From: Methanosphaera sp.
GTDB lineage: Archaea; Methanobacteriota; Methanobacteria; Methanobacteriales; Methanobacteriaceae
NCBI GenBank assembly: GCA_017430835.1
Contig: JAFRMD010000187.1
Coordinates: 1 to 47,814, forward strand
Length of the DNA: 47,814 nt
Direction of reading: 5' to 3'
The position numbers were made by a program, and so were the translations under genes. How positions within the stretch are numbered: position 1 is the stretch's first letter; each line of letters begins with the position of its first letter. Positions 15,320 through 38,631 of this stretch are shown one piece after another. Below the pieces are notes generated by a model, which saw only the letters and a list, made by a program, of their open reading frames with translations, had not been told where the DNA came from and did no database searches.

Positions 15320-15443
15320 TTAAATTTGTTGAATAATGTTCTATGTAAAATTTAAGTAGTAATAAATTGAAATATAATAAAAGACATAATAGGAGTCTAT
15401 AAATTATTAATGACACTCTAAAAGTAGACAAGGAGATAGGTGA

Positions 15444-20386: not shown

Positions 20387-22894
20387 ATGAAAAATAAGAA
20401 AAGTATTATAATGATATTATGTTTTATAGTGCTAGTGTTTTCATTAAATACCTTATCCGCAGCAAGTTCTGAAAAAAAATTGAACACAACAAAAATTGAT
20501 AAACAAGCAAATATTCACAAAGTTAGCAAGGAATCGACAACTAAAAAGACTAAGAAAACATCAAACAGTATAGTATACGTGAATACTTCTTCAAAAAGTA
20601 ATACAGAAGATGGTAGTAAATCGTCACCTTATAAAACTATTAATAATACGAATATAGGAAAAATATCCGATAATTCAACAGTTTACATCTCAAAAGGTAC
20701 TTATAATGTTTCCCCTACAAACCTAAATAAAAATTTATCCTTTGTTGGAGAAGATAAAAAAGATGTAATTTTTATTCCTGAAGAAAACTCAACTACATTC
20801 ACTGTTAAAGAGAACGCTAATGTGAATTTTATAAATTTAACTATTAAGAATTTTTTATCAGAGAATAATAATTTGATTAAAAACACAGGATTATTAAATA
20901 TTGATAATGTAAATTTTTACAATAACAAAGTTACTAGTAAACAATCCAATGGAGTGTGCATCAAAAATACGGGAAGTTTAAAACTATCCAATTGTCTTTT
21001 TGAAAATAATACTGCCTCATATGGATCAGCATTATACAATCAAAACAAGGCAAAAGTAGATGATTGCATATTCAGTAAAAACAATATATACAATGTTGGA
21101 GGAGCTATCTATAGCATTCGTAGCGATTTAACCGTTACTAATTCAAAGTTCAGTGAGAATAGTGCTGTTAGTGGTGCAGCCATTTACAATGCTTTCGGTA
21201 ATTTGACTGTAAATAATACTGACTTTTATAAAAATAATGCTGCAACATTCTTTGGAGGAGCAATTTATTCAACTGGGATAACTTATGCTTATAATTCAAA
21301 CTTTTACAGCAATCATGCCAATAAAGATGGCGGAGCGATAACCAACACTAATAATTTCACCATTTTTAATTGTAATTTTGAACAGAATTCTGCAGGAGAA
21401 AATGGTGGAACCATTGAAAACGTTGCATGGTCCGGTAATGAAAGAGGAAATTTAACCATATTCTATTCCTCTTTTCTAGAAAATAGTGCCGGAATGGACG
21501 GCGGAGTAATCATAAATTATAATAAAAATGAAAGTGATGGAAATTTTTCAACCGTTACTGCAAGACATAATGTTTTCGATTCTAACACTGCTTCAAATAG
21601 GGGTGGTGTAATTTATAATGAACAGTTTATGGATTTTGAATACAATGTTTTAATAAATAATGATGCCAATACTGGTAAAATGGTTTATTCAAAAGATGAT
21701 TTAATAAAAAGCATAGAAAATAACTGGTGGGGTAAAAACAAGATTACCCGAAATGATATTGGAGTAATACCTAAAACGTGGGTTGTTATGAAATTATCAA
21801 ATACGACCGCATTTGTAAAAAACTTAAAAAGTAGTTTGAACATCTCTTTAGATACATTGAATACTGGAAAAATACTGGATTCGACACTCCCTAACAGGAA
21901 AGTAATTTTCTATGTTGATAAAACGATACTTTCCAGCAATTATGTTACAATAAACAAGTCCATAAGTTATTTACTTACACCTTTAGATGATAGGATAAAT
22001 GTCAAAATTGATAATCAACTCTTGTCCTTAAAAGCAGCAAAGGCAAACATAACATATTCATTAACAAATAAGAACCAAACTTTAAACATTAAAGTCATAT
22101 TGCCAAAAAATGTTAAAGGAAAAATATCAGTAAAAATTAATTCCAAAAATATCTTTAATAAGAAAGCATTAAGCAATGGAAAACTATCTTTAAATTATGT
22201 TATTCCAATAAAATGGACGAAAAATAAGTATAAGATGGAAGTGTTATTTAATTCAAAGGATGGATCCTTTATTAAGAATTTAACAATTAAAATTCCTAAA
22301 AGACAAAGTAAAACAACCCTTAAAATTATCAATATGAGTGCATTGAAAGCTGGAAAGAAAATTAAATTAATTGCAAATGTTAAACTTGGAAAATATAATA
22401 TCACTACAGGTAGCGTAACGTTTAAAGTAAATAAAAAAACTATAAAATCTAAAGTTAAGGTGACTGATGGTAAAGCAGTATACAAATACACTATCCCCAA
22501 ATCATTTTCACCTAAAAAATATGTGTTCCGTGCAGTATATAAGGGAGATCTTAATAAAAAGCCTTCAAATGCATCTAAAAGCATAAAACTAGAAAAATTG
22601 AACATCAAACTCAATATTAAAAGTAAACTTTCTTTGAAAAGAAACGTTAAAAATCAAATAAAAGTAGCAGTTCTTGATGAATATAAAAGAAAAGTAACAT
22701 CTGGAAAAATTTCTTATAAAATCAATAAAAAAACAATAAAAAGCAACATTGCCATTAAAAAGGGATATTTCATTATCAAATATACTCCTAAAATTAAGAG
22801 TAAAAAACAAGTAACACAGACATTAACAATTAAATTTAACGGAAAATCCAAATATAATTCTCTAAAAAAGACTGTGAAATTAGTAATAAAATAA
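20387..22894 (+). CDS. Adhesin-like surface protein (beta-helix plus Ig-like repeats)
   Basis: An 835-residue secreted protein starting at ATG behind AAAGGTGA. Order: signal peptide (KSIIMILCFIVLVFSLNTLSA), Lys/Thr linker, the pectate-lyase-like opening IVYVNTSSKSNTEDGSKSSPYKTINN near residue 65, then a beta-helix of repeated units such as GGAIYS and NCNFEQNSA to about residue 440, closing at NNWWGKNKITRND, a typical end of this helix type. Three Ig-like repeats rich in lysine follow to the C terminus. There is no membrane anchor at the end. It is probably displayed on the pseudomurein wall; the ligand is unknown. Confidence 0.86.
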   Translation: MKNKKSIIMILCFIVLVFSLNTLSAASSEKKLNTTKIDKQANIHKVSKESTTKKTKKTSNSIVYVNTSSKSNTEDGSKSSPYKTINNTNIGKISDNSTVYISKGTYNVSPTNLNKNLSFVGEDKKDVIFIPEENSTTFTVKENANVNFINLTIKNFLSENNNLIKNTGLLNIDNVNFYNNKVTSKQSNGVCIKNTGSLKLSNCLFENNTASYGSALYNQNKAKVDDCIFSKNNIYNVGGAIYSIRSDLTVTNSKFSENSAVSGAAIYNAFGNLTVNNTDFYKNNAATFFGGAIYSTGITYAYNSNFYSNHANKDGGAITNTNNFTIFNCNFEQNSAGENGGTIENVAWSGNERGNLTIFYSSFLENSAGMDGGVIINYNKNESDGNFSTVTARHNVFDSNTASNRGGVIYNEQFMDFEYNVLINNDANTGKMVYSKDDLIKSIENNWWGKNKITRNDIGVIPKTWVVMKLSNTTAFVKNLKSSLNISLDTLNTGKILDSTLPNRKVIFYVDKTILSSNYVTINKSISYLLTPLDDRINVKIDNQLLSLKAAKANITYSLTNKNQTLNIKVILPKNVKGKISVKINSKNIFNKKALSNGKLSLNYVIPIKWTKNKYKMEVLFNSKDGSFIKNLTIKIPKRQSKTTLKIINMSALKAGKKIKLIANVKLGKYNITTGSVTFKVNKKTIKSKVKVTDGKAVYKYTIPKSFSPKKYVFRAVYKGDLNKKPSNASKSIKLEKLNIKLNIKSKLSLKRNVKNQIKVAVLDEYKRKVTSGKISYKINKKTIKSNIAIKKGYFIIKYTPKIKSKKQVTQTLTIKFNGKSKYNSLKKTVKLVIK

Positions 22895-23015: not shown

Positions 23016-26000
23016 CTACTTCCTAATACGAACATTAGGTTTTGTGAAACCTATGAAGAAGATTATTGCAATTAGAACTACAAATAAAATGTATCCTAAA
23101 GAAATCTCTGATTGTGGAGATGGTGGTTTACCAATGTTTTTCTTAATGATTTCATATACTGCTTGAGAACCTGATGTAGAACCTGATTCTCCACCTGCTG
23201 ATGAACTTCCTGCACTTGGAATGTCCCCTGCACTTGAAATTCCATCATTTGTTGTAGTACCATTACGTCCATTCTTACCATTGGTATTGTTAACAGTGCC
23301 TGTTCCACTTCCGGAACCTGAACCAGAACCTGTTCCAGTTCCTACATCACCATTTCCAGTACCAGAACCTGAATCACCTGTTCCAGTTCCGCCATTGTTA
23401 GAAGCCATTGAATTTGCATCCCCGTTGTTGTTTGTGGAGTCTGCTAAACCTGAAGCTCCTGCTCCTGCCATTGCCATTGCATTTGCTTCGTTTGTTGTAC
23501 CCTCATTTACGTATTCATTTATACCTTCTCCCGCATCAACAACTCCTGTTCCTTCAGTACTTATTGTTGCATCTGAATTTGATTCAGTGTATACTGCATC
23601 AGGATTTTTAGTTGCGGATGCATATATTTGAGAGTACTCTTCTAAACCTTTTACACCTAATGATGATCCTACTTTTATTATCCAATCATGGAGGTTTATG
23701 TTACCACAAGTGTGGTGACAACATGCCACACCATAACGGTTTGCGTTGTCAACATATTTTTGTAATAGTTTTTTCTTTAGGTTTTGGTCATCATTTGTCC
23801 AATAACCGTACATGTCACTTGTTAATAACCAACCTGCCATTGATTGCCATGAATATGATTTATATTGTGCATCAATTATCATGTAAGGACTGTCTATTAA
23901 GTTTTCGGCTAATTCTTTTAGTAATCCATTTCCAATAATTCCTGCATTATTTCCATCAGAATCGACTTCAACGGATTTACCTGTTAATGATTCTTGATAA
24001 TTCTGTGTAGTCAGCATTGTTTTCATCAAGTTTTCAAAGTTTTGGGACATTTGGTTCCATCCACCAACTGTTGATGCCATTCCCTGCATCCATTGTGGAT
24101 TCAATAGTGTTGTTCTTGTTTCACGTTTTACTTCTTCACCCAACGTGTTCGTGACAACATTGTTTTTATCACGAATGTCAAGTAGTATAGTGTTAGGGGT
24201 TGCTCCATGAACTGTTGCTGCATTTAACAGACCTCCATACCAATCAACATAATCATCTGTATCAAGGTATCTCCAACTACTGTCCAGGTTTTGGATGATT
24301 AAATCAACGTGTTCTAACATGTATGCAAATATTGCACTGTCATTTTTTACTACAATTTTACCATCTTTAATGTTCCATGAATGCCCTATTCTTGATTCGT
24401 AAACACTTGCTATTTCAGAAGAAACACCATTTGAAGTATTTAATGTTAAACCTGCTTGGTTTAACATATCTGACACTCCCGTTCCTTCAAGTACTGCACC
24501 AGGCAATCCAAATAATCTTTCTAATGATTTTACTTCCTTATAATGTTTTTTAACATAATTATATTTTGTAGATTCTTTTAAAGCATTTACCTTATATACT
24601 GATTCAGTTAGTAAAGTTAACCAGTAAGGGTTGTTACTAACAATTGTTGCAAATACATCTATTCTAGGTCTTTGATAAACTGTTCCGTTAACATTAATCG
24701 TGAGTTTTTTAAGTGGTATTACTTCAGTTCCTACTACCGTACCCGTATTGTCCCATACCGGCTCAACACCAAGCAGGTATAAGAACTGTGCAAGACTTAT
24801 ACCTTCTGTACGTAGTACTTCAGTACCCCATATTATTTCACCAACTGTTTCAGGGAAAGTTTCTTCACCCATGTCAATCATGTACTTTGACAGTAACTGA
24901 TCAACTGATTCTACTGCAGATTCCCATGCACTTTTACTTGGCATCTTTGTAGTATCACTTGCGTACATGGCTCGTCCAGTAGGTAAAACATCCGAGTATG
25001 ATGGATCAGCAGCTAATCCAGGTTCAACATATCCTCCACTAAGAGCATTTAATATGGATTCCCATTCGATATTGTTGTTTACTTTATTAATAATATCCTT
25101 TACTTCGGAAATGTCCTTGTAAAAGTTTGAGGATTCATTATAAACACCATAAGATTGGGCTACTTTTTCTACACTGTATCCTTCAACCAGGTTAGTTACG
25201 ATAGATGTTAGAACATTGTTAATAGTTTTTTTCTTGGAATTAAAACTTCTGTCTTTAATCATTTTATAGTAACTTTCATTTATTGAAGGATAGTAGAGGT
25301 TCATTATACTTTCAAGGATAGTTGTTCTAGAGGATGCTATAGTCTCAACACCACTTATCATCTCTGTACTATTCCAGACATAACCTATGGTATGCAAACC
25401 ATAATTCATCTTATCTGCCGACATCCCCTCTATGTCCTGATGTATCATTGCTAACCAATCTTCAAATGCCTTATCACTATCTGTATATTTTTTTACTTTT
25501 TTGAGCCATTTATTGAATTGACTGGATTTTGGTTTTTCGAATCCTAGATTTGTTGCGTACTTGATTAAGTCTTTTTTAGATTTTGCTAAATCCTTCTTAT
25601 TTCCATTTTTCTTGGAAATCAAATATGTCTTATAACTTTCAGAGAATGCCAAATAATCTGGTTTTTCGTAACCTAACTGTGTTGTTAAATTAATAATATG
25701 TTTTTTATAATATTCCATATTATTTTTTACGCCACTGGCTTTGTTAGAATCGTATCTGGTAATTTCATCATTTAACTTCACATAATCCCCATATAATGAC
25801 GTGGATGATGATACTGGAGTCATATGTGTAATTACTTGTGCAAAACTTCTTTCTTTTGCAGTCATACCTTCCCCAGGGTTTGAAACTATGTATGGATATA
25901 CTATAGGAGTTTCAATTAACTGGAACGGCCAGTCTGCTGATTGTAATCCTTGAGTTCTGCCCGGTAACCATTCTAATGTACCGTGAGTTCCTAAATGTAC

Positions 26001-28625
26001 TATTGCATGGTTTTTAAATACCTTACTTAGATACTTATAATATGCTACATATTGTTGTGGCGGTGGCAAGTAGCTGTTGTGGAAATCAATTTGTGAATCC
26101 CATCCTCTTACCGGTTGAACACTTAGGAATATGTTTCCAAAACGTACACCAGGTATCAAGTAATAACCCTGGTTTTTATATCGTGTTTCATTTGCTAAAG
26201 CAAAACCATTACTTTGATTAAATTTCTTCTGTAAATCTGAAGGCAAAGCAAAATACCATTGATAAAAACGTGTTTTATTTAAAACATATCTTTTAGAATT
26301 TTTAGATATGATAATCTTTGTCTTGTTTTTATTCCAATAATGCTTAAATTGGCTTTGCAGACTTTTAGATAAACCTTTTAACCATTTTTTTAATTGTTTT
26401 CTATTTACTTCAACCTTTTCACGATATATCATGGATCCATTTCCCATACCTTTACCCCATGAAGCATACATGCTTTTTTGTAAACTTTTAGGAAGTGTTT
26501 TGAACCATTTATTATATTGTGCTTTACTTACTAATTGTTTATATTTAACTAAATCCTCATAATGATCAATTACGTACAAATCTAATAATCCTTCTGCCCA
26601 TTGACCTTTATTACTGAAATCAGTGACAATAGTGTTTATTTCTTCGGTTGTTGGAATTTGGTTTTTGTCCATTCCAATATTATATCCTTCATCATATAGT
26701 TTTTCCAGAAAATCATGAATAGTTTGGAAAACATCTAAAAATGATGCTCCAATATTTGCTTTTCCTGGAGGGTATCCATAAACAATTAATGATATTCTTT
26801 TCTTTGAATTGTTTAATTCTTTAAGTTTTGCCCATCCATTGGTTAACTGCACATGTTTTGCAATTCCTTCTTTTATTAGAACTGTTTTCTGATTTTCATC
26901 CACATAGGATATTGGAATAGAACCGTAAACTCCTTCAAACTCGGGCATAGTTACTGCGGCAGTCCATTCATTTTGTGGACCGTATTCGCTTTCATAACTG
27001 AATTTACTAATATCCTTTAATGCATTGATTAAAGTAGTGTTTAAATGTTTATATGCATTAATAGTGTAATCTTCTCCCCTTTGTGTATAACCTGTAGTCC
27101 ACCAGTACATGTAACTTACTGCACTTACCCCTCGTTTTAGGTAGGATTTGTTTCCTGCCATTTCAAGCAGTGCAGTCATATCAGGATCTTCTGCAGTATT
27201 TTTGTAAATACTGAATGCTGCTCTTTTTTGATTTTCATATTCCTTAATTAAAGCATTTACTACTTTACCTCCAGAATAATAGGTAGCTATTGCTATGAAA
27301 GGTCCTGATATCTTTTTATTTTTGTTATACCATTTTTCAAAGTTATTGAAAATTTTTTGAGGATTGTTATTAACCTTATTCCATTGGGAATATTCTATAG
27401 TCATCCAGTTTAAACTTCCAGCTCCGTCAGCATTATAACCTGGGTCGGATAGAATCCAAGTGTTTATTAAACTTTCACTTGGTGTTTTCACATTTCCTTT
27501 AAATCCTGGATAATAGATACCCCAAGAGTTTGATACGTATATTGGACCATTTCCAGTAGTTGTAGGATTTATTGTTGTTTCTTTGAGTAAGAATTTAATA
27601 TAACTAAACAAGTTTTTCATATTTTTTTGAAGAACTGTTGAGTTTGATTCGGCTGTTGTCTGCCAATATGATCCTACGTATGTATTTTCTACTGAATGTG
27701 GATTACCACCCAGAAATCCCCAATTTCCTAAAGTTCCTTGCAATATTCCATCGTCAAAAATTCCGAATACATATGCAATTTTCTCTTTTTTGGATGCCGG
27801 GGATTTGGCTATCTGACTTGTATCAATTGCAAAACCATTTCCTGGAGAGTACATGTCAACTAGTATGAAATTAGAATAATCTAACATCCATTGACCTGAA
27901 TCATCATATGAATTATTTAATGCATAACTTTCCAAGAAGAAAAATCTATCACTGTATTTTTTAAGTTGATTGGCTTTTTCTTTTTGTCCGTTACCACTAG
28001 TGTCTCCTGAAAATGTTATGATAGCAATATCTGGTATGAATATATAATTTATTTTACGAGAACTAATTAAATTTGTTGTTTCTTCACCAACAGAGTAAGT
28101 TCCGTAACTAAATTTTAAGGTATAATTTCCAGAATTCAGATTAGTGAAGTTATAAGCACCGGTTATGTCACTTTTTGTGCTAGTAATACTTTTACCTGTG
28201 ACTGAATCGTATAAAGATATTTTTGCTCCATTTACTACAAAAGCATCTTCTTCTCCAGCTGCATAGACATTGTTAATTTTGTCATATGCAGTTGTTACTA
28301 TTCCAGTGATATTAAATTTGTCTACTGCATTTGCAGTTTTGATATCACTTAATGTTTTGTTTCGTTTTAAAATTACGTTCTTTTGATTGCTCGTATTTTG
28401 TACATCCTGTTTCGTAGTGGCTGTTTTTGTATTATTTGTTATACTCTTTTTATTGATTGTTTTGGTTGCATGTGTTGTTGAAACATGAGTTTGTGTTATG
28501 ACTTTTTGAGTAGATATTGAATTTTCTTTAGTAATGCTGTTTGTTGAATTATCTTTAGCTGTTACTGTTGTACAAATTATTAAAAGAAAGAGTATTATAC
28601 ATAATGAAATAATTTTCTTATTCAT
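23016..28625 (-). CDS. Secreted, membrane-anchored CobN/Mg-chelatase H-like protein
   Basis: A giant of 1869 residues counted from ATG 28625, which lies eight bases after AAGGAG; the upstream GTG at 28634 overlaps that site. Order: signal peptide (KKIISLCIILFLLIICTTVTA); Lys/Thr linker to ~100; a Cna-B/carboxypeptidase-regulatory-like beta domain (~105-190, TGAYNFTNLNSGNYTLKF); a CobN/ChlH-type chelatase region (~200-1690) with QPVRGWDSQIDFHNSYLPPP and the signature HLGTHGTLEWLPGRTQGL (~880) and HHTCGNINLHDW (~1638); a Gly/Ser/Asn-rich stretch; and a C-terminal membrane helix with a basic tail (VRIRK). Cytoplasmic CobN inserts cobalt into hydrogenobyrinate diamide with ATP-using partners, usually in ~1200-1300 residues. 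Here the domain faces outward, so binding or capture of a tetrapyrrole or metal is more likely than ATP-driven chelation. It is the last gene of the minus-strand set with an ExbB/ExbD-like pair. Confidence 0.87.
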   Translation of the reverse strand: MNKKIISLCIILFLLIICTTVTAKDNSTNSITKENSISTQKVITQTHVSTTHATKTINKKSITNNTKTATTKQDVQNTSNQKNVILKRNKTLSDIKTANAVDKFNITGIVTTAYDKINNVYAAGEEDAFVVNGAKISLYDSVTGKSITSTKSDITGAYNFTNLNSGNYTLKFSYGTYSVGEETTNLISSRKINYIFIPDIAIITFSGDTSGNGQKEKANQLKKYSDRFFFLESYALNNSYDDSGQWMLDYSNFILVDMYSPGNGFAIDTSQIAKSPASKKEKIAYVFGIFDDGILQGTLGNWGFLGGNPHSVENTYVGSYWQTTAESNSTVLQKNMKNLFSYIKFLLKETTINPTTTGNGPIYVSNSWGIYYPGFKGNVKTPSESLINTWILSDPGYNADGAGSLNWMTIEYSQWNKVNNNPQKIFNNFEKWYNKNKKISGPFIAIATYYSGGKVVNALIKEYENQKRAAFSIYKNTAEDPDMTALLEMAGNKSYLKRGVSAVSYMYWWTTGYTQRGEDYTINAYKHLNTTLINALKDISKFSYESEYGPQNEWTAAVTMPEFEGVYGSIPISYVDENQKTVLIKEGIAKHVQLTNGWAKLKELNNSKKRISLIVYGYPPGKANIGASFLDVFQTIHDFLEKLYDEGYNIGMDKNQIPTTEEINTIVTDFSNKGQWAEGLLDLYVIDHYEDLVKYKQLVSKAQYNKWFKTLPKSLQKSMYASWGKGMGNGSMIYREKVEVNRKQLKKWLKGLSKSLQSQFKHYWNKNKTKIIISKNSKRYVLNKTRFYQWYFALPSDLQKKFNQSNGFALANETRYKNQGYYLIPGVRFGNIFLSVQPVRGWDSQIDFHNSYLPPPQQYVAYYKYLSKVFKNHAIVHLGTHGTLEWLPGRTQGLQSADWPFQLIETPIVYPYIVSNPGEGMTAKERSFAQVITHMTPVSSSTSLYGDYVKLNDEITRYDSNKASGVKNNMEYYKKHIINLTTQLGYEKPDYLAFSESYKTYLISKKNGNKKDLAKSKKDLIKYATNLGFEKPKSSQFNKWLKKVKKYTDSDKAFEDWLAMIHQDIEGMSADKMNYGLHTIGYVWNSTEMISGVETIASSRTTILESIMNLYYPSINESYYKMIKDRSFNSKKKTINNVLTSIVTNLVEGYSVEKVAQSYGVYNESSNFYKDISEVKDIINKVNNNIEWESILNALSGGYVEPGLAADPSYSDVLPTGRAMYASDTTKMPSKSAWESAVESVDQLLSKYMIDMGEETFPETVGEIIWGTEVLRTEGISLAQFLYLLGVEPVWDNTGTVVGTEVIPLKKLTINVNGTVYQRPRIDVFATIVSNNPYWLTLLTESVYKVNALKESTKYNYVKKHYKEVKSLERLFGLPGAVLEGTGVSDMLNQAGLTLNTSNGVSSEIASVYESRIGHSWNIKDGKIVVKNDSAIFAYMLEHVDLIIQNLDSSWRYLDTDDYVDWYGGLLNAATVHGATPNTILLDIRDKNNVVTNTLGEEVKRETRTTLLNPQWMQGMASTVGGWNQMSQNFENLMKTMLTTQNYQESLTGKSVEVDSDGNNAGIIGNGLLKELAENLIDSPYMIIDAQYKSYSWQSMAGWLLTSDMYGYWTNDDQNLKKKLLQKYVDNANRYGVACCHHTCGNINLHDWIIKVGSSLGVKGLEEYSQIYASATKNPDAVYTESNSDATISTEGTGVVDAGEGINEYVNEGTTNEANAMAMAGAGASGLADSTNNNGDANSMASNNGGTGTGDSGSGTGNGDVGTGTGSGSGSGSGTGTVNNTNGKNGRNGTTTNDGISSAGDIPSAGSSSAGGESGSTSGSQAVYEIIKKNIGKPPSPQSEISLGYILFVVLIAIIFFIGFTKPNVRIRK

Positions 28626-28850
28626 TATATACACTCCTTTTTCGAATATTTTAAAATTTATGTGTGTTATAAATCAATATTTTGTGAATATAATACACTA
28701 ATAATAATTTAGTTGTTTATTTATAATATAAGTATTGTTAGTTAAATTAGATTAAATTAAATTTGATAAATAATTTAATATAAATTTATTTAATAGTGTT
28801 AAAAATAATTAAAAAAAAGATAGAAAAAATGAAAAAACAATGAAAAAATA

Positions 28851-31800
28851 TTATTTAATTAATAATCCTTTTTTATATGTTTTAGTCAATGATGAAAATT
28901 TACTGTTACCTTTGTATACAAATGTTATTTTTTGATATCCTTTTAACTGTTTAAGAGCTACAAATTTAAATACTATTTGACCCTTTTTAAGAGTACCTGA
29001 GATAACTTTTCCTTTAGAATCTTTTAATACTTTTCCATTAAGTTTCAAGGATACTTTACCATTATCAGCAGTTTGTTTCTTTTTACCTGATAAACCATTG
29101 TCAATTTTTAAAACCAATGATACTTTTTTACCTACCTTAGCTTTAACATTATTATAATGGAAAACCGGCTTGAATGGTTTAATTTTTATAGTTGTTGACT
29201 TAGTAACTTTAGTAATGGTGTCATTACCATCATAAACTATTTGCAATTTATAATTACCCTTATCAAATGTTTTAGGAACTGTGTACTTGTATTTGATGAC
29301 TCCTTTGGATATCTTAGCATTGGCAATCCTTTTATTATTTATTTTAATTGCCACTTTGCCAGACTTGATTGCTTTTTTGTTTGCAGTAATTTTTGCCTTA
29401 ATCACCACAGGTTTACCAAGAGTTGCAACATGTTTTTTAATTGAAACTGCAGATTTAGTCTGGACGCCCAACTTATTGCTTCCAGAGGAGGATGCGAAAT
29501 CATGGGTTCCTAAATAAACAACTTTAATAGTATACACTTTACTAGTAGTTTTTGCAGGTATTTTGTAAGTGTATGAAGCTACTCCCAATTTAACCTTAAC
29601 TGTTGCAAGCTTTTTATTACTAAGATAAAATTCTGCTTTTCCAGATCCTATTTTTCCACCGTTTGCTTGGGTAATATTGGCAGTTAATTTAACTTTTGAA
29701 CCTGCCGTATTAAGAACTTTAGCAACCTTAACCTTTGTTTTTGATGGAACTTTCTTGAAAGTTGCCTGGGCAATAGCCGTAGCATTTTGGAAGTTTGTTC
29801 CAGTTACTGAAACAGATAATTGATATGTTGTTGCTTTGAGTAATGTAGAAACTTTATAGGATAATGTTGCTTTTCCTTTACTTACCTTACTTTTTCCAAT
29901 AACATTTGATCCCAATTTAAATGTTGCAGTTAAATTTTTAAAGTCACTGGTTGTTGATTTTACAGTTGCAGTTATTGTTACTTTCTTTCCAAGATAAGCA
30001 CTAACTGGTTTTACTGTAACATTTACAAAGTGTAAGAAATTGTTTGAAATCTTATTGGATGAGTGTTCACTAACAACTGACTTATCAGCATATTTTGATT
30101 TAGCTTTCAGTGAATTATTTTTTACAACATTTTTGGAAGATTGATCAGCCAATTTAACTGTTGTAGTCGCATTGGTATCTATCTTGTTTTGAGTAATTGT
30201 ATTTGATGAACTTGAATACATTAACATTATTCCCTGATCACCAACAGGTATTACATCACTGTGTTTGGCAGAAGTTGATGAACCATAATTGACTTTACGT
30301 AAAGTAAACTGATTCTCTTTTATGTTGTTGTTTGAACTTCTGTAACCTGCAATACCATAAGGATTTGTTCCAGTTGCAGTGATTTTATTTGACAATATCT
30401 GATTTTTACTAGAATCAAACAACTCTATTGCATATATACCGGAACCAGTTGCAGTAATTTTATTCTTAGATATTGTGGAAGAGGTACTGTTTTCCAATAT
30501 TACACCATGAACATAATCTCCCTTATTTGTGGAATTTTTATTACCTGTTACTGTAATAGTGTTTGATTCAACAATTGTGTTTACACTATTTCTTCCTGCA
30601 ATAAATCCTGCTGTGAAATAACCTCCAGTTACTGAAACTGTATTGGACTTGAATGTATTTGCTGTTGCATTGCTTGTTGTTATTGAAGAACCCCAATTTC
30701 CACCAAGTACTCCCATACCATATACGTATGGTCCATAGCTCACCATATTAATATTGTTACTTGTAACTTTGTTGTTATGTGAATCAAAGTATATGTCAAT
30801 TCCAACAACACTATTTTTGCAAGTTGAACTTGGGGAAGTGTATTTGTTAAATTGTGATGTTACTTTGACTGTGTTTTTGTTTATTGCATTGTTTGATGAA
30901 TAAACCAACATGATACCATGATTGTGAAGAACTTCTTTTAAAAAATCAACAGGTTCACTAAATTGTAATTCCTCATCATATTGATTAGGTTTATTTGATT
31001 GATTTATATTAATTGTGTTTGATTCTAATGTGTTTGTATCAGATGAATAAGCAAAAATTCCGTTATTGATAAGATCACCTGAAGTTGTTATAGTACATCC
31101 TGAAATTGTGTTACCATTTGCACCACATAAGAATATTCCTAAGCTTTCCTCTTTAGCATAATTTGTTATTTTCACATTAGTAATCTTACAATTATTCACA
31201 TCCATTATTTCAATTGCATGTTGATTATCATTGTCTTTGTTATTATTTTTTATTGTGAGATCTTTTATTGTTGATGCATGTGCCTCATCCATTAGTGTTA
31301 TTGTTCCCTGATTTATTACACAACTTTGTCCAATAATATGAACCTTTCTTGGGAATTTAAAGTTTATATTGTTAAATGTACCTTTTAGGTATACTGTTGT
31401 GTTTTGTAATATTTGGTTGTCACCAGAGGTTTTTGCATTTCCATCCGTATCAAAGTATGTTAGAACATTTGTAGAGTTTACTGTTATTTTAGCGTTTGAA
31501 TCAGGAGTATTTGCACCATTTGAATTTGCTGGTTTTAAATAAGCTTTCTCCAAACCAGTTCCTCTTTTTGATGATAATACATTAGAATCATCTACAATTA
31601 TCTTTGTTTCTGATGCTACTGATGAACCTGTTTCATTAAAGTTAATAGCATAATCGGCTTGTGAAGTAACCTTATTTAATTTAACAGTTACATCATTAAT
31701 TTTTTTAGTTGAAGACTGTTTTTTAAATAGAATACCCTCTTTATTACTAATAATTGTATTATTGTTTATAGTTATTTTAGTGTAATCTCCTTTTGCGTAA

Positions 31801-33005
31801 ATACCGTTACTATTTCCTACGTTAATAGTGTTTGATTGAATAAGTATGTTAGTTCCGCCAATATCAATACCTGCACCATTTTCAGAAGTGATTTCATTGT
31901 TTAATACCTGAACATCATTTCCTCCAATGTTTATTGCAGTTGCAACATTATTTACGTGAACTTTATTATTATTTACTTTTGCTCCTTCACAGGCATATAT
32001 TCCAGTAGAGGTTGCTGAAACATCATTGTTTGATATTGTATTTTTAGTTCCGTCTTGAGTGGATATTCCTTTGTATCCTCCAGAAACAGTATTGTAAGAT
32101 ATGATGTTTCCTGCACCCATTACTTGAATTGTGTTACACCAAGAACTATCATATCCTGTTACTTTATTTCCAGTTATGTTGTTGTTATTACAAATTCCAC
32201 CTTTAAACAATCCAGAACCGTATGAACTTAAGTAAATTGTATTTGCTTGATTTGATTTTACTGTGTTGTTTGCTATTTTGTTATTATGGGAAGAACCCAT
32301 TACAAATGCTGAGTGGGATCTAGTAGCTCCTTCACCCATTGCTGTTTCCAATGTGTTTAACCTAACTGTACTTTGGTTCATGTTATCTGCTGCAAATGCA
32401 AATGAATATGAACCCGTTACTTTGATATTATTGTTTTCTATGATTAGATTTTTTGAATTATTTACGTGAATACCGGAAGTATATTCTTTAGTGTTCTGTA
32501 TTGTTAAGTTTGATATTTTTGAACCTGCGGAATTTGTTCCTTGAACATAGACTGTACAATTGTATAGTTTTGCATTTTTGTCTTGGCTGGTGAGTGTTAT
32601 TGATTTGTCTAATGCGAAGTCTACATTATTGAATGTTCCTTGTAAATTTAAAGTATCTCCTGACTGTACCAAGTCTGTGGTAACTGTCATATTGGATTTT
32701 TTAGTGAAATACTGACTATATAACTCACTTGTTACTTTTCTTGTAGTTCCTGCTGTTTTAACTGTCTTATTTTTATCTTTTATTTTGTTATTTTTTTGTA
32801 TTGTTTTATTATTGGCTAGTTTAGCTGTTTTTGGTGTGCTTTTTGTGGTTGTGTCTTTAACTATTTTGTTAGCAGTTACCTTTTTTTGCACAACATTATC
32901 TGAGTTATGGTCAGTATCTGAACTGATTTCTGCTGCAGATATTGTTCCTAAGCTAACCAGTAATAAAACCAATGTTAATAACATAATTTTATTTATGGTT
33001 TTCAT
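28851..33005 (-). CDS. Adhesin-like surface protein (two beta-helix regions plus Ig-like repeats)
   Basis: A 1384-residue secreted protein. The start ATG follows GGTGA. It has a signal peptide (INKIMLLTLVLLLVSLGTISAAE), a Lys/Thr/Asn linker to ~90, then two similar blocks that each open with a YFTKKSNMT/YFDTDGNAK-type segment and continue as NosD-like beta-helix repeats (N-x-I-x-x-N-x-I/V steps; ~100-480 and ~515-1010). Four or five Ig-like repeats follow, with GKATLSYKV-type strands, to the C terminus. The two blocks suggest internal duplication. There is no C-terminal anchor. It lies between the ExbD-like and the CobN-like gene on the same strand, with its own TATA box, which hints at a partner role, although adhesin genes are also scattered elsewhere in the window. 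Confidence 0.86.
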   Translation of the reverse strand: MKTINKIMLLTLVLLLVSLGTISAAEISSDTDHNSDNVVQKKVTANKIVKDTTTKSTPKTAKLANNKTIQKNNKIKDKNKTVKTAGTTRKVTSELYSQYFTKKSNMTVTTDLVQSGDTLNLQGTFNNVDFALDKSITLTSQDKNAKLYNCTVYVQGTNSAGSKISNLTIQNTKEYTSGIHVNNSKNLIIENNNIKVTGSYSFAFAADNMNQSTVRLNTLETAMGEGATRSHSAFVMGSSHNNKIANNTVKSNQANTIYLSSYGSGLFKGGICNNNNITGNKVTGYDSSWCNTIQVMGAGNIISYNTVSGGYKGISTQDGTKNTISNNDVSATSTGIYACEGAKVNNNKVHVNNVATAINIGGNDVQVLNNEITSENGAGIDIGGTNILIQSNTINVGNSNGIYAKGDYTKITINNNTIISNKEGILFKKQSSTKKINDVTVKLNKVTSQADYAINFNETGSSVASETKIIVDDSNVLSSKRGTGLEKAYLKPANSNGANTPDSNAKITVNSTNVLTYFDTDGNAKTSGDNQILQNTTVYLKGTFNNINFKFPRKVHIIGQSCVINQGTITLMDEAHASTIKDLTIKNNNKDNDNQHAIEIMDVNNCKITNVKITNYAKEESLGIFLCGANGNTISGCTITTSGDLINNGIFAYSSDTNTLESNTININQSNKPNQYDEELQFSEPVDFLKEVLHNHGIMLVYSSNNAINKNTVKVTSQFNKYTSPSSTCKNSVVGIDIYFDSHNNKVTSNNINMVSYGPYVYGMGVLGGNWGSSITTSNATANTFKSNTVSVTGGYFTAGFIAGRNSVNTIVESNTITVTGNKNSTNKGDYVHGVILENSTSSTISKNKITATGSGIYAIELFDSSKNQILSNKITATGTNPYGIAGYRSSNNNIKENQFTLRKVNYGSSTSAKHSDVIPVGDQGIMLMYSSSSNTITQNKIDTNATTTVKLADQSSKNVVKNNSLKAKSKYADKSVVSEHSSNKISNNFLHFVNVTVKPVSAYLGKKVTITATVKSTTSDFKNLTATFKLGSNVIGKSKVSKGKATLSYKVSTLLKATTYQLSVSVTGTNFQNATAIAQATFKKVPSKTKVKVAKVLNTAGSKVKLTANITQANGGKIGSGKAEFYLSNKKLATVKVKLGVASYTYKIPAKTTSKVYTIKVVYLGTHDFASSSGSNKLGVQTKSAVSIKKHVATLGKPVVIKAKITANKKAIKSGKVAIKINNKRIANAKISKGVIKYKYTVPKTFDKGNYKLQIVYDGNDTITKVTKSTTIKIKPFKPVFHYNNVKAKVGKKVSLVLKIDNGLSGKKKQTADNGKVSLKLNGKVLKDSKGKVISGTLKKGQIVFKFVALKQLKGYQKITFVYKGNSKFSSLTKTYKKGLLIK

Positions 33006-33069
33006 ATTTTCACCATTATATTAAATCTGTTAAAAATTTTTTTAAAGAAATTTAGATTCTCTATAGTGG

Positions 33070-33079
33070 TTATATATTT
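33070..33079 (-). promoter_or_regulatory. TATA box of the beta-helix protein gene
   Basis: Minus-strand AAATATATAA, preceded by an A-rich element, lies 65 to 74 bases before the start codon. It predicts a leader of about 40 bases and shows this gene can be transcribed separately from the ExbB/ExbD-like genes. Confidence 0.45.
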
Positions 33080-33201
33080 GTTGCTTTTAAATATTAATAT
33101 TTTAAAAAAATTTATTTAATTAAAGTAAAATTGATAAAATAATCATTATTAAATTAGTAAAAATAGTAAAAAAAGAGAGTAGAAAAAATTTTTTAAATTT
33201 A

Positions 33202-33540
33202 TCACGCTGGCGTCATATACTGTTTTCCAGTTTTCGGATCAGTATAAACAGTTCCTGTTTTTGTATAACCAGAACTTGAATCATCTATACTTTCAGGCAC
33301 ATCAGTTACCTGTTGACCCTGTTCAATTTCAACTGTTTGCTGTGCTTTCTGCATTACATTCTGTTTTTGTTCAGGACTCATGTCACTAAATACAACATTT
33401 TGCATACCTGTAGACATTACAGCAAAAATTAAGAAACCTACAGCCAATACCAACATAATATCTGTCATGTTTGTTACTGAAGACATTGGGTCCAAGTCAT
33501 CATTGTCTCCATGTCTTATTCTACCGCGTCTTAATGACAT
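33202..33540 (-). CDS. DUF2149-type membrane protein, ExbD-like
   Basis: A 112-residue protein with a basic N terminus (RRGRIRHGDNDD), the segment DLDPMSSVTNMTDIMLVLAVGFLIFAVMS forming one membrane helix, and a soluble tail facing outside. I place it in DUF2149, a family of unknown function in methanogens. The plan matches ExbD/TolR: a short cytoplasmic start, an aspartate at the head of a single membrane helix (the proton-carrying residue in ExbD), and a periplasm-side domain. Its ATG overlaps the stop codon of the MotA/ExbB gene by one base (TAATG), indicating coupled translation and a stoichiometric partner. ExbD equivalence is inference. Confidence 0.75.
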   Translation of the reverse strand: MSLRRGRIRHGDNDDLDPMSSVTNMTDIMLVLAVGFLIFAVMSTGMQNVVFSDMSPEQKQNVMQKAQQTVEIEQGQQVTDVPESIDDSSSGYTKTGTVYTDPKTGKQYMTPA

Positions 33541-34187
33541 TAGAAATCAACCTCTAATATTGTTTCACCTAAATCATACAATGTTGTAATGTCCTGATCA
33601 TACCATTTTCTACGAATTTTGGATATTACAAAACAAATTGTACCTGATGCTAAACCTGCTGTTGTTGTGTTGAATGCAGTTGTTAAATTAGCCGTTAACG
33701 TTTGCATATCCCCTAAACCTAAAGCAGCCAATCCAGGACCCATAGGAATAATTGTTCCTAACAAACCACATCCTGCACCTACTTTAGCTACAATATCGAC
33801 CTTAGTTAAAGATCCTATCATTTTTGCTTCTTGGGTTTCTAGTAAGTTTCTAGCTAAAATTTCCCTAGTATTTTTATCATAACTGTCGCGGTCTAACATT
33901 GCAATAGAGTTTAATAATTCCTTATCATATTTATGCAGGTTTGTTTTGTTTACAACATCACATATTTCGTCTTGAGTCTTACATTTAGCAATGTCTTTAA
34001 TAATTTTTTCTTTATCTTGACCAGTAATTTTTTTTCGACCAGTATATTCGGCAAGTATTGAACCCAATTCAATTATTGCAAATATAATGAATATTACTAG
34101 CAAAATCATTACCGGCAGTAATAAACTTTGAGCTATTACATTTAATACACCTGAAAGAATTTCTCCTCCAGGGATAGTTGATACCAT
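33540..34187 (-). CDS. MotA/TolQ/ExbB family proton channel protein
   Basis: A 215-residue membrane protein. It has one helix near residues 13-42 (SLLLPVMILLVIFIIFAIIELGSILAEY), a cytoplasmic region of about 90 residues, then two helices (VGAGCGLLGTIIPMGPGLAALG and TAFNTTTAGLASGTICFVI). The sequence TKVDIVAKVGAGCGLLGTIIPMGPGLAALGLGD followed by LTTAFNTTTAGL is the recognised ExbB/TolQ/MotA pore signature. In bacteria such proteins use the proton gradient to drive motion or transport through an ExbD-type partner; the gene directly downstream is the obvious candidate. It is 11 bases after the DUF2162-like gene. Confidence 0.9.
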   Translation of the reverse strand: MVSTIPGGEILSGVLNVIAQSLLLPVMILLVIFIIFAIIELGSILAEYTGRKKITGQDKEKIIKDIAKCKTQDEICDVVNKTNLHKYDKELLNSIAMLDRDSYDKNTREILARNLLETQEAKMIGSLTKVDIVAKVGAGCGLLGTIIPMGPGLAALGLGDMQTLTANLTTAFNTTTAGLASGTICFVISKIRRKWYDQDITTLYDLGETILEVDF

Positions 34188-34198
34188 TCTTTATCCTC

Positions 34199-34900
34199 CT
34201 AATATTTCAAAAAGTAACTTCGTTTTTTAGCAAGTATTCCTCCAAAAATCATTAGCAAAAATATTACTACTAACATTTCTAGCATTGAATAAAATGATTG
34301 TATTTGTATTGTTGTTCCATCAACTAATAAAGAAATGTTTGGTAAAATCATAATACATAATACAAAGTATATTCCAATAAAAATCATGAAATTTCCCAAA
34401 ACCAATGGATAAGGTTTATTGATTTTTTTAACTATTGAAAATGACAACAGATATGTTATTCCCATTACAATAACCAATGCAACTGCTGAAACTGCACCCA
34501 AAGTAACTGAGGATATACCAGCAACTGGTGCTACCAATATAACAGAGGACAATATTGCTCCAAAACAACAAGGACATGGTGCTACCACTGCCATACATGT
34601 TGCAGATCCAGTGTCTTTATCCGTTACTTGCCAATCATATATAGTTTTAAATCCTGTTATTACAATTATTATGGCTATAACTGCAAATATGGCCCCACTG
34701 TAACCGTATACTATCTGGTATATTAATTCAGTATAAGGTTGGCACAGGTAAGATAATACTACTAGCCCCACACCATAACCTAACAATATTAAAGCAACTT
34801 TTTTTCTTTCAATTCCTGAAAAACCTAAGGCTAAACCAATTTTTACACCAAATACTAGTACGGCCGCCAATATACCATATTGCCAGAATTGTTCTAACAT
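34199..34900 (-). CDS. DUF2162-type polytopic membrane protein, putative transporter
   Basis: A 233-residue protein with about six or seven membrane helices. A motif VVAPCPCCFGAI near residue 110 places three cysteines at a helix entry, suggesting metal or thiol chemistry. I match it to DUF2162, annotated as a predicted transporter in methanogens; the substrate is unknown. The start ATG follows GGTGATATT. It is the first gene of the tight trio with the MotA/ExbB and ExbD-like genes. A good TATA box lies about 85 bases upstream. Confidence 0.75.
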   Translation of the reverse strand: MLEQFWQYGILAAVLVFGVKIGLALGFSGIERKKVALILLGYGVGLVVLSYLCQPYTELIYQIVYGYSGAIFAVIAIIIVITGFKTIYDWQVTDKDTGSATCMAVVAPCPCCFGAILSSVILVAPVAGISSVTLGAVSAVALVIVMGITYLLSFSIVKKINKPYPLVLGNFMIFIGIYFVLCIMILPNISLLVDGTTIQIQSFYSMLEMLVVIFLLMIFGGILAKKRSYFLKY

Positions 34901-35262: not shown

Positions 35263-38200
35263 ATTAAAAACAAAAACAAAGTCATATTATCATTTTTAAT
35301 AGTATTAATAGCTTTTTTGATGATAACATCAGTTTCGGCAACAGACAATAACATGACAAAAAAAGATAAGAAAATTGCAGAAAAACATGACAAAATCAAA
35401 AACACTGCCAAAAAAGCCAAAACACCATTAAATGAAAAAAACATTAAAAAAACAGCAACTAAAAATACAAAAAAAGAAAATGATAATTCAAACGACGATA
35501 ACAACCCAACAACTAATGATAAAAAAGAAGACCCTGAAATTAGGTTAAGTAATTCTGAAATTCATCCTGGAACAAGCCATACATTCCTGGCATTACTTCC
35601 AAATGATTCAGAAGGAACAGCACACTTTACTATAGATAACAACACAATTTCAGATGAAATACCTGTAGAAGAAGGACAAGTAAGTTACACATACACCATA
35701 CCAAGCACATACTCTTCAGAACACTACTTATTAAGTTTAGTATATAGTGGAGATGAAAAATACCATAATAAAACAGCATACGCCAATTTAACTTTAACAC
35801 CCGAAGGAGGAAAAACAAAAGCAACAATAAATTTAAAAAACTATACTGCAAAATACCTGTCAACAATCCCATTTAAAATTAATTTAAACAAAAATGCTAC
35901 AGGAAATGCCAGCATAAAAATAAACAATAAAATTATAGCAGAAAACATTAACCTAACAGATGGAACCATCAATTACTCTTATAAAAGTGTTGAAAACCCT
36001 GGAACATACACTATAGAAGTAACTTATAACGGAAATTATATGTATGAACAAACAAGCAAAAACTCAACATTAACCATTAACAAACTATCAAGTTCAATTA
36101 GTACAAAAGACATCACATCTAAAGCCGGAAAAAAAACATTATTCAAAGCCACATGCACTGATGAACTAGGAAGAGCCTTAACAAAAAATGCAGTTACATT
36201 TAAAATAAACAACAAAAAAATAGGAAGCAACAAAACAAACTCAAAGGGTGTTGTTACTCTTTACGCAGTTATCAACTCTAAATTAAATAACAAAATTAAT
36301 AACTTAACCGTGACAACAACCGCCACCTCAACCACGCTAAGTAACACAAAAAGAGTTAAACTAACATTAAAACAATTAAAAACAAAAAGCGTTGTTCCAA
36401 CAATATCAACCATTCCCTCAAAAACAATAACCTTTACTGCCACAGTTGTTGATGAATTCAATAATAGAGTAAATGTTGGATATGTTACCTTTAAGAAATC
36501 CGGTAAAATCCTGAAAAAAGTTAAAATATCAAACGGTTTTGCAAAATATGAATTATACACAAATTATCAAACATCAAAAAAATCATATATTTATGCAATA
36601 TATACTGGAAACTGGAAATATGCAAACTCAAAAGCAAAAGGACTCTACAAAATAAACAAACTTAAAACATTCACAACATTAACAGCCATTGAAACTAAAA
36701 TAGCATCCAGAATAAAATTCCAAGTACACCTAACCGATCAAACACAGCAAAAGGTTACTTCCGGTAAAGTAAAATTATACATAAAATCAAAGCTTATTGG
36801 AACAGTTAAAGTTAAAAAGGGTTTAGCTACATTAAATTATAAACTATCTAAAAAGTATACTGCTGGAAACTATAGGATTAAAGCCGTATATTCTGGAACC
36901 AAAATGTATCTGAAGTCTTCAAAAACCAACACCATGACTGTAAACAGACTAAAAACCACCATTAGTGGAGAAGAAGTTGTTGCAATCGTGGGAAAAAAAT
37001 CATCAATTAAACTATATTTAACTGATGAAGACCAATATAATGTAGAAAAAGGTATTGTGAAATATTACGTGAACGATACATACATTGGCAAATCCAAAGT
37101 ATCAAAAGGAGTATCTAAACTTGTTTACAGAATTCCAAAAAGATTTGATGGATTTACTGTAAATTATTATGCAACATACGAGAAGAATGGATTGTATGAT
37201 TCAAGTTCTTATACCAATACGATGACTGTTGCACATCAGAAAGTAGTTTATGTAAGTAATAAAGGTAATGACAATAATTTAGGAGATAAAAAACATCCAT
37301 ATAAAACAATAAAGCATGCAATTAACCATATTACATTGTTTGGTAAGATAAATGTCTTATCAGGAAAATATTCCGTATCAGGTATTAAAGTTGATAAATC
37401 AATAAGCATCATCGGAAAAGGAAAATCAAAAACCATACTTGACGGAAAACAGAATGGTAAACCAATGTTTAATACTACAAAACGTAATGCAGTATTAACA
37501 ATCAAATCATTAACTATTCAGAATGCCAAAAGTAATAAGAAATTTAGTGCAGGAGCAATTGTTTCAACAAGCAAATTGAATTTATATAATGTTCGCTTCA
37601 AAAACAATATAGCTACTGGCCTTTATTCAGGAGGAGCAATATATACAAATGGTATATTAAATGCAACAAAAACAGAATTTATAAACAACAAAGTAACAAA
37701 CGTTAACAGTCAGGGAGGAGCAATACGTTCATACAATAACACAACATACCTAATCAAGTGTAAATTTAATGGAAATACAATTACTGGAAACAATAATACT
37801 GGTGGTTCCGCAATATACTCCGAATCATCTGATTTAATTATTAACCAGACAACATTTGTGAACAATCATGCAAAAGGTAAATATATCACAGGTGGTGTTA
37901 TAAGATCAATATCTGGTGCTGTCGTAATAGACAGAAGTAAATTCAATAAGAACACAATTACTGCCACAGGTTATGGTATGGGTGGTATAGTTGGAAGTTT
38001 AAGTTCTGCAGTATCCATACGAAATAGTAACATCAACAACAATATCGTTAAAGGAAGTGGTTCTGCCGGAGGAAGTGTAGTTTACATTGAAACTGCAGCG
38101 ATGGACATTTACAAAACAAAAATGACATCAAATAAAGTCGTTTCACCTGCCTCTTACGGAGGAGCAATATATGGTTATAAATCTGTGATAACCTTAACCA

Positions 38201-38631
38201 AAGGAAGTCTGACCAAAAACATGATAGTGTCCTCACAGAATGGTTATGGTGGAGCAATATACATCTTTGGAGGTAAATTAACCTCTAAGAAAAATATCTT
38301 TAAAAATAATGAAATTAATGCCAAAAATATGGCACTTGCAGGTGCAATATATTCATATGGTAAAGTTAAAATTTCATCAGACAACTTCATCCAGAATAAA
38401 ATAAATGCTACAAGCCTTGGTGGTGGAGCAATAGCAAACATGGGAAATCTAACAATCACAAAAACAAACTTCATAGACAACAACGCATCAAATACTGGAA
38501 ATGCTATAACTTCAACAAAAACTGCTAAAAACAATATAAACAACAATTACTGGGGTTCAACTAAACCTTCATGGAAACAGTTACTATACGGTTTATCAAA
38601 ACCTAAAAAATATCTTAAAAAGAAAGCATGA
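35263..38631 (+). CDS. Adhesin-like surface protein (Ig-like repeats plus C-terminal beta-helix), probable ATT start
   Basis: Reading from ATT 35263 gives about 1122 residues with a textbook signal peptide (KNKNKVILSFLIVLIAFLMITSVSA). The first usable TTG or ATG (35317 or 35320) would cut this signal in half, so a rare ATT start or an N-terminal sequence change is likely. Domains: Lys/Asn-rich linker to ~90; six or so Ig-like repeats (~90-650, with GKVKLYIKSKLIGTVKVKKG-type strands); then VYVSNKGNDNNLGDKKHPYKTIKHAI opening a beta-helix with repeated GGAIY steps, ending at NNYWGSTKPSW. This order is the reverse of the other adhesins here, where the beta-helix comes first. There is no C-terminal anchor. 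Confidence 0.82.
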   Translation: MKNKNKVILSFLIVLIAFLMITSVSATDNNMTKKDKKIAEKHDKIKNTAKKAKTPLNEKNIKKTATKNTKKENDNSNDDNNPTTNDKKEDPEIRLSNSEIHPGTSHTFLALLPNDSEGTAHFTIDNNTISDEIPVEEGQVSYTYTIPSTYSSEHYLLSLVYSGDEKYHNKTAYANLTLTPEGGKTKATINLKNYTAKYLSTIPFKINLNKNATGNASIKINNKIIAENINLTDGTINYSYKSVENPGTYTIEVTYNGNYMYEQTSKNSTLTINKLSSSISTKDITSKAGKKTLFKATCTDELGRALTKNAVTFKINNKKIGSNKTNSKGVVTLYAVINSKLNNKINNLTVTTTATSTTLSNTKRVKLTLKQLKTKSVVPTISTIPSKTITFTATVVDEFNNRVNVGYVTFKKSGKILKKVKISNGFAKYELYTNYQTSKKSYIYAIYTGNWKYANSKAKGLYKINKLKTFTTLTAIETKIASRIKFQVHLTDQTQQKVTSGKVKLYIKSKLIGTVKVKKGLATLNYKLSKKYTAGNYRIKAVYSGTKMYLKSSKTNTMTVNRLKTTISGEEVVAIVGKKSSIKLYLTDEDQYNVEKGIVKYYVNDTYIGKSKVSKGVSKLVYRIPKRFDGFTVNYYATYEKNGLYDSSSYTNTMTVAHQKVVYVSNKGNDNNLGDKKHPYKTIKHAINHITLFGKINVLSGKYSVSGIKVDKSISIIGKGKSKTILDGKQNGKPMFNTTKRNAVLTIKSLTIQNAKSNKKFSAGAIVSTSKLNLYNVRFKNNIATGLYSGGAIYTNGILNATKTEFINNKVTNVNSQGGAIRSYNNTTYLIKCKFNGNTITGNNNTGGSAIYSESSDLIINQTTFVNNHAKGKYITGGVIRSISGAVVIDRSKFNKNTITATGYGMGGIVGSLSSAVSIRNSNINNNIVKGSGSAGGSVVYIETAAMDIYKTKMTSNKVVSPASYGGAIYGYKSVITLTKGSLTKNMIVSSQNGYGGAIYIFGGKLTSKKNIFKNNEINAKNMALAGAIYSYGKVKISSDNFIQNKINATSLGGGAIANMGNLTITKTNFIDNNASNTGNAITSTKTAKNNINNNYWGSTKPSWKQLLYGLSKPKKYLKKKA

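Follow-up and report, generated by a model that had tools for sequence, protein, structure and literature searches.

The contig JAFRMD010000187.1 of Methanosphaera sp. carries a row of five minus-strand genes encoding a DUF2162 polytopic membrane protein, an ExbB-type protein, a DUF2149 protein, a beta-helix protein and a very large CobN-like protein, and the stretch of 47,814 nucleotides (nt) in which they were analysed is referred to here as the window. Among named sequences, DUF2162 and the CobN-like protein both match Methanosphaera best. An earlier sequence-only reading had proposed these five open reading frames (ORFs) and their families, and both the coordinates and the Pfam matches on which all family calls are based agree with it (Table 1). 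The DUF2162 and ExbB genes are separated by 11 nt and the ExbB and DUF2149 genes overlap by one base, and the beta-helix gene is flanked by gaps of 196 nt on the DUF2149 side and 216 nt on the CobN-like side. The motor and the giant chelatase-like surface protein encoded by such gut methanogens probably act jointly to strip scarce metals, nickel above all, from external chelates.

Table 1. Features of the gene cluster in the window (aa, amino acids)
Feature	Position	Strand	Basis
DUF2162 polytopic membrane protein, 233 aa, first of the trio	34199..34900	-	PF09930, 209 bits
ExbB/MotA/TolQ-type protein, 215 aa	33540..34187	-	PF01618 (MotA_ExbB), 36.1 bits
DUF2149, ExbD/TolR-like single-span protein, 112 aa	33202..33540	-	PF09919, 68.5 bits
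Membrane Asp27 of DUF2149	codon 33460-33462	-	Residue conservation
Beta-helix adhesin-like protein	28851..33005	-	PF13229/PF05048 (Beta_helix/NosD)
CobN/HmuS-like ectoprotein, 1872 aa	23016..28634	-	CobN-Mg_chel PF02514, 597 bits
HLGTHGTL motif of the CobN-like protein	25974..25997	-	Alignments to ChlH, CobN and HmuS
CCHHTC metal-ligand-like motif, residues 1638-1643 of the CobN-like protein	23706..23723	-	Alignments
Membrane-proximal YE[VI] box (Y1827-E-I) of the CobN-like protein	23148..23156	-	Common to other C-anchored ectoproteins
C-terminal membrane span of the CobN-like protein, residues 1840-1870	23025..23117	-	Hydropathy

A DUF2162 profile scan of public genomes, from which the best 80 of 105 relatives were taken, gives 81 loci together with the window (L and G numbers denote loci and genomes, both from public genomes). 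DUF2162–ExbB–DUF2149 is complete in 74 of the 81, and the seven incomplete loci (L023, L036, L053, L061, L069, L073 and L076) are all cut by a contig end. CobN was counted with queries made from its body only, the CobN hidden Markov model also scoring the C-terminal tails of FmdE ectoproteins; a CobN body is present on 35 of the 81 loci, and in 29 of the 81 the CobN gene is co-oriented with DUF2162 and its end lies no more than 600 nt upstream of it. A survey of 151 Methanobacteriota genomes, which are related and not independent events and do not include the genome of the window, has shown DUF2149 in 135 and PF02514 in 118; of the 16 genomes that lack DUF2149, 4 have PF02514. Co-occurrence across methanogens had been set beforehand as a test of the sequence-only reading, and the loci and the survey together bear it out, as they do the proposal that a pair of the ExbB/ExbD type is coupled with DUF2162 and with a CobN-fold protein at the surface. 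DUF2149 and DUF2162 have no match in a plasmid collection; CobN matches occur in 159 plasmid records, and the two whose wider neighbourhood was examined are cobalamin loci. DUF2162–ExbB–DUF2149 is a tight, real unit and not a chance arrangement, and ExbB–DUF2149 is also present without DUF2162, for example in L153, L099 and L109. A family of secreted proteins typified by L060:11700-14309, one tested member of which is a DUF3344 protein with Ig-like domains, is present in 33 of the 81 trio loci; 34 of its 45 members lie downstream of the trio on the plus strand, and CobN is found at 25 of its 33 loci.

The beta-helix protein has an N-terminal hydrophobic segment only, as judged from hydropathy, and its slot is filled by different adhesin-like ORFs in the other Methanosphaera loci L004, L005 and L009. 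It had been listed, with some doubt, as a member of the system, and this part of the sequence-only reading is not upheld: the gene probably lies outside the conserved unit and encodes a variable adhesin that is not part of the system.

Conserved residues of the ExbB–DUF2149 pair are those expected of a proton motor of the ExbB/ExbD type, with an ExbB family match in one protein and a single span with a conserved Asp in the other. Asp27 of DUF2149 is kept in 99% and Asn24, Met29, Leu30 and Val31 in 100% of 105 unique sequences, and Gly144, Thr145, Thr174 and Thr175 of ExbB are kept in 99–100% of 111 unique sequences. DUF2149 matches the TolR model TIGR02801 weakly (E-value of 0.0012; 19 bits versus a cut-off of 127). 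Its D-x-M-L-V stretch resembles that of E. coli ExbD, and DUF2149 is the shorter of the two proteins. Bacteria use ExbB/ExbD-type motors to draw nutrients across an outer membrane, which these archaea lack. TonB (PF03544) is absent from all 151 Methanobacteriota genomes and the TonB-receptor barrel (PF00593) is matched in one of them, E. coli, Caulobacter and Bacteroides controls being positive; the lone receptor match (G031:C16:5966-7045, E-value of 2.5e-15) may be assembly contamination. Thus, the archaeal pair is like ExbB–ExbD, TolQ–TolR and MotA–MotB in its ExbB family match, its ExbD-like span with a conserved Asp and the Gly and Thr residues kept in the spans of ExbB, and unlike them in operating without TonB and without an outer membrane, in agreement with the earlier reading, which noted that the organism has no outer membrane. 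Since TonB is missing from the genomes surveyed, the ExbB–ExbD-type pair needs another partner, and the gene set described here offers a testable role for such a motor in cells without an outer membrane. DUF2162 had been described as a polytopic Cys-motif transporter. Its polytopic nature agrees with the PF09930 match and with an AlphaFold2 model that is all-helical (mean predicted local distance difference test (pLDDT) score of 76.8), but its role as a transporter is unproven, and the CPCC part of its conserved PCPCC motif is altered in the CbiM-linked copies of L145 and L146 though retained in that of L078.

The CobN-like protein consists of an N-terminal signal segment (residues 1–29), a carboxypeptidase-regulatory-like domain, a class-I chelatase body, a low-complexity linker and a single C-terminal hydrophobic segment followed by a basic tail. 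Because of the N-terminal signal segment and the C-terminal span seen in hydropathy, the chelatase body is predicted to face outward, as the sequence-only reading had it. The predicted topology is that of a secreted class-I chelatase fold anchored at its C-terminus. A model of residues 560–1680 has a pLDDT of 87.0 and a predicted template modelling score of 0.87, and the closest PDB structure among the matches listed is the heme de-chelatase HmuS, level with ChlH and CobN on Z. At the sequence level, the top score is with ChlH, and the scores against the NCBIfam CobN/BchH equivalogs (386 bits versus 1619 and 359 versus 822) are far below the curated cut-offs. The protein shares the fold and the His of HxGTHG with the class-I chelatases CobN and ChlH, and differs from them in being secreted to the side that has no ATP and in carrying a C-terminal Cys motif and an anchor. 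A tree of 28 rows, made of the strict-motif ORFs (29 found, 27 after removal of near-duplicates) and HmuS and leaving out the motif-negative Roseobacter BchH, places HmuS on a very long branch, so that HmuS as the sister group was not retained. The CobN gene adjoining the trio is frame-split in G144 (L121:9870-14801) and carries several stops in G151 (G151:C1:985055-987406); the three trio genes themselves are unbroken in L121 and L090.

Bacteroidota hmuYRSTUV operons encode the de-chelatase HmuS, the membrane protein HmuT, the ExbB-like HmuU and the DUF2149-type HmuV (PMC12583661, PMC13227078, PMC10100974, PMC10434189). HmuS takes metal out of heme (PMC12583661), HmuU is assigned to MotA/TolQ/ExbB and HmuV to DUF2149 (PMC10434189), and an HmuT model matched mainly Bacteroidota clusters (PMC10100974). 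A 2025 EMBO J paper on the HmuS structure describes the role of many archaeal homologs as unclear and complete hmu operons as missing from archaea (PMC12583661). In the archaeal loci, ExbB-type and DUF2149-type genes, the families of HmuU and HmuV, stand beside a chelatase-fold gene, and so the S, U and V counterparts of hmu are linked in archaea. The second His of HLGTHGTL (H884) aligns with the catalytic His538 in the HFG(T/A)HG motif of HmuS, where the window protein has HLGTHG, and this His is retained in 71 of 74 CobN-like ORFs. CCHHTC is invariant in both alignments of close relatives (14 and 41 sequences) and aligns with CSGFVC of HmuS in a region beyond the end of the CobN and ChlH alignments; among the 74 ORFs, 26 have CCHHTC, 34 have CCDC[ST]C and 64 have any C....C. 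The CobN-like protein is closest to HmuS, yet it lacks two features by which HmuS is recognised. The LSLDHxxEFMGG motif of HmuS (axial His1209 and Glu1212) is absent from the window protein, which has LDTDDYVDWYGG; DH..EF is found in 5 of the 74 ORFs (L126, L137, L142 and the shorter L081 and L082), and a CobN-like DD motif replaces the HmuS His in 62. The Met-rich insertion of HmuS domain IV is likewise missing, the window protein having 7 Met residues in 961–1190 and never more than 8 within a stretch of 120 residues. The PF02514 ORFs L081:1453-5106 and L082:1030-4587, of about 1200 aa, have no Cys motif and an HmuS-like DHYYEFLGG, and are possibly not surface proteins. The archaeal system thus resembles hmu in an outward, membrane-anchored chelatase-fold protein encoded with ExbB-type, DUF2149 and polytopic proteins and in the C-terminal C....C segment, and is unlike it in the lack of TonB, of a TonB-receptor match in 150 of 151 genomes, of His1209 and of the Met-rich insertion, and in the ties of its relatives to CbiM and FeoAB. 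The resemblance makes de-chelation a better first guess than whole-tetrapyrrole import.

The neighbourhoods in relatives link the trio to metal-ion permeases. In the Methanobacteriaceae locus L030 (the same as L152), a same-strand run encodes an FmdE ectoprotein, HPGHG, CbiM, AHG, CobN, DUF2162, ExbB and DUF2149, where HPGHG and AHG are names coined here for small proteins that each begin with a signal-like segment, have a C-terminal span and match no Pfam family above its cut-off. The L118 version of this run contains two CobN genes and a fragment of FmdE, and in the L012 version the first ORF is cut and other ORFs separate AHG and CobN. In L206 (the Methanosphaera genome of L004), L146, L145 and Methanobrevibacter L024, L037 and L078, an FmdE–CbiM–AHG block is followed immediately by the trio, with no CobN between them. 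FmdE–HPGHG–DUF2162–ExbB–DUF2149 faces CbiM–AHG in L201 and L209, and the order is FmdE–CobN–DUF2162–ExbB–DUF2149 in L136 and L140, whose genomes are taken as Methanothermobacter. AHG-linked CbiM occurs at 15 loci (L012, L024, L030, L037, L078, L118, L145, L146, L199, L200, L201, L202, L206, L207 and L209), 11 of which carry the trio, 8 of the 15 having been selected on the trio or on its CobN; L203 (no AHG match, CbiM at a contig end) and L204, L205 and L208 (a further weak CbiM outside the cluster) were left out of this count. CbiQ is found beside none of these 15 CbiM genes, whereas it accompanies 30 of 30 ordinary NikM/CbiM control loci, which have shorter flanks. The relatives' cluster is therefore like the energy-coupling factor transporters NikMNQO and CbiMNQO in containing a CbiM-family S component, and unlike them in the lack of CbiQ. 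No CbiM, CbiQ or CbiO is seen in the window. A CobN ectoprotein with a YEV anchor lies directly upstream of Pfam-confirmed FeoA–FeoB at L154:7312-13669, and a similar arrangement, in which FeoA is not called, is present at L122:3174-9525; it is apparently an iron version of the system. A box K-[AS]-Y-E-[VI] near the membrane is common to CobN and FmdE ectoproteins. Among filtered C-anchored ORFs, a YE[VILM]-type match is present in 38 of 41 CobN, 10 of 11 FmdE and 3 of 16 other ORFs; these three all lie near ExbB, and one of them, in L034, is without the K.YE[VI] form in its tail.

Genome G144, which we take to be the M. marburgensis chromosome, encodes DUF2149, ExbB, DUF2162, CobN in three pieces and FmdE in this order at L121. 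The M. marburgensis ORFs c10550-10570 are CobN-like (MTH673 in the sister species), and the CobN gene c17530 adjoins feoAB (c17510-17520) (PMC3087415). In a 2025 study of M. marburgensis, nickel limitation raised the 'Transporter' MTBMA_c10530 and an ABC transporter, for which its authors suggest nickel transport, and CobN1, of unknown role, and NikR1 were high solely under this condition (PMC12350162). MTBMA_c10530 is most likely ExbB (or DUF2162) of the trio, a mapping that we infer, and the nickel-induced 'Transporter' and CobN1 of that study are here linked to one conserved gene set. Two other reports have no bearing on nickel: proteomics of M. thermautotrophicus, in which ExbB/D is raised at 71 °C (PMC6528648), and a table of the M. 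ruminantium response to lauric acid, in which the ExbB gene mru_0329 is listed (PMC5816558).

An operator-like repeat, GTAWTA-N15-19-TAWTAC, is found within 250 nt upstream of 8 of 11 FmdE genes, 7 of 19 DUF3344 surface genes and 7 of 65 CobN genes, compared with 0 of 91 DUF2162 genes and 5 of 697 other genes. The enrichment (22/95 versus 5/697; Fisher's P of 2.6e-17) overstates independence since the sequences are related, and the counts for FmdE, CobN and DUF2162 are partly circular because the repeat was first spotted in their upstream regions; the DUF3344 and nikM sets are independent of the discovery. When the pattern is loosened to N15-17 with one relaxed outer base, it precedes 6 of 13 HIPDGF (nikM-type), 0 of 15 HIMEG (cbiM-type) and 1 of 2 HIGDG genes, the nikM and cbiM labels being our own assignments. 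The E. coli NikR site is GTATGA-N16-TCATAC (PMC7055735), and NikR control of methanogen nikMNQO has been predicted earlier (PMC10617489). The repeat is NikR-like in its sequence and may be an operator common to FmdE, DUF3344, some CobN and some nikM genes. It is not clearly enriched across G144 (forward/reverse counts of 3/3 versus 0/0 in the control, and 2/4 versus 2/3), and two of its eight places there are just upstream of CobN and FmdE. In the window, the closest approach to the repeat lies at 28696, before CobN, and has one mismatch; it carries little weight in AT-rich DNA.

These observations lead to a reading that we hold with moderate confidence, namely that the locus encodes a TonB-less, proton-driven surface metal scavenger, an outer-membrane-free archaeal relative of the bacterial Hmu system whose main cargo is most likely nickel. 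ExbB and DUF2149 would together be a motor of the cytoplasmic membrane that runs on protons, and its working partner in place of TonB would be DUF2162 together with the membrane-anchored chelatase-fold ectoprotein, possibly contacted through the C-terminal span and the YE[VI] box. On the outer side of the membrane, the ectoprotein would bind a tetrapyrrole that carries a metal, or a comparable chelate, and free the metal ion, rather than insert a metal or capture the whole molecule, and the motor would give force or cycle the complex. The freed ion would then be imported by metal permeases, CbiM/NikMNQO for nickel or cobalt and FeoB for iron in the paralogous operon, with nickel as the most likely main cargo of the trio-linked system, in this species as well. 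Two observations weigh against this scavenger: the CobN gene beside the trio of G144 is broken, and no CobN is found at 25 of the 57 fetched trio loci that have more than 5 kb of upstream sequence. Methanogenesis relies on nickel and cobalt enzymes, and hence a scavenger that many gut and rumen methanogens carry at their surface would be of practical interest.

A more specific mechanism, possible though doubtful, is that ExbB–DUF2149 pulls directly on the surface chelatase-fold and FmdE proteins through the ectoprotein's C-terminal span and YE[VI] box, which would act as a built-in TonB, and that metal is thereby freed mechanically from extracellular tetrapyrroles or other chelates for the CbiQ-less CbiM. 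HmuUV of Bacteroidota would then act with HmuS/HmuT, either in addition to TonB/HmuR or in its place.

The sequence-only reading had proposed capture of a tetrapyrrole or metal under proton force. Its acquisition theme stands, but whole-tetrapyrrole import is less favoured, the likeness to hmu favouring de-chelation and the CbiM/FeoAB context outside the window pointing to metal-ion uptake and to nickel. Whole-molecule capture, in which a tetrapyrrole such as F430, heme or a cobamide is bound by the ectoprotein, with proton force driving its import through DUF2162, would fit the binding of tetrapyrroles by chelatase folds, the polytopic nature of DUF2162, the 'predicted transporter' of Pfam, and the CobN genes ending just upstream of it. 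We regard this reading as rather unlikely because the permeases linked in relatives are metal-ion systems, a fold search of the DUF2162 model gives no recognisable transporter fold among the matches listed, ExbB–DUF2149 exists without DUF2162, and B12 synthesis has been reported for all sequenced methanogens (PMC2667541).

A role for the ectoprotein in inserting metal, or in surface storage or sensing of a metal or tetrapyrrole, with the trio as a separate generic energiser, is unlikely. The DD motif in most CobN-like ORFs, the best sequence score with ChlH and the trio loci with room for CobN but without it are consistent with such a role. However, CobN and ChlH work with ATP-driven partners that reside in the cytosol and could not operate outside, and the genes adjoin import systems and have the precedent of HmuS. 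It is still less probable that ExbB–DUF2149 drives a cell-wall or surface-protein process in the manner of Tol or Mot, with the chelatase genes as mere neighbours: the locus is ringed by adhesin-like genes and other C-anchored proteins also sit by ExbB, but the same small set (CobN, FmdE, CbiM, AHG and HPGHG) is repeatedly linked across several genera, and the nickel-limitation proteomics argues in the same direction (PMC12350162). A true heme-acquisition HmuSTUV system common to Bacteroidota is very improbable, since the shared S, U and V families and the top, Z-tied structural match to HmuS among the matches listed are outweighed by the missing HmuS motif and Met-rich insertion, the lack of TonB throughout the phylum survey and the reported absence of complete hmu operons from archaea (PMC12583661).

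No title or abstract found in the open-licence literature describes this gene set as an archaeal system. A surface 'BchH' of M. ruminantium with N- and C-terminal spans has been noted among peptide-vaccine proteins (PMC2812497).

A Pfam scan of 20 other ORFs of the window finds no cob genes among them. Adhesin-like proteins with Ig-like or Chlam_PMP repeats (20387-22894 and 35317-38631, both on the plus strand) flank the cluster on the opposite strand. Two tetrapyrrole-type genes, encoding an NAD-binding protein (PF13241, perhaps precorrin-2 dehydrogenase) and the glutamyl-tRNA reductase HemA, are located at 14684-16634 on the plus strand, about 6.4 kb from the cluster and on the opposite strand to it.

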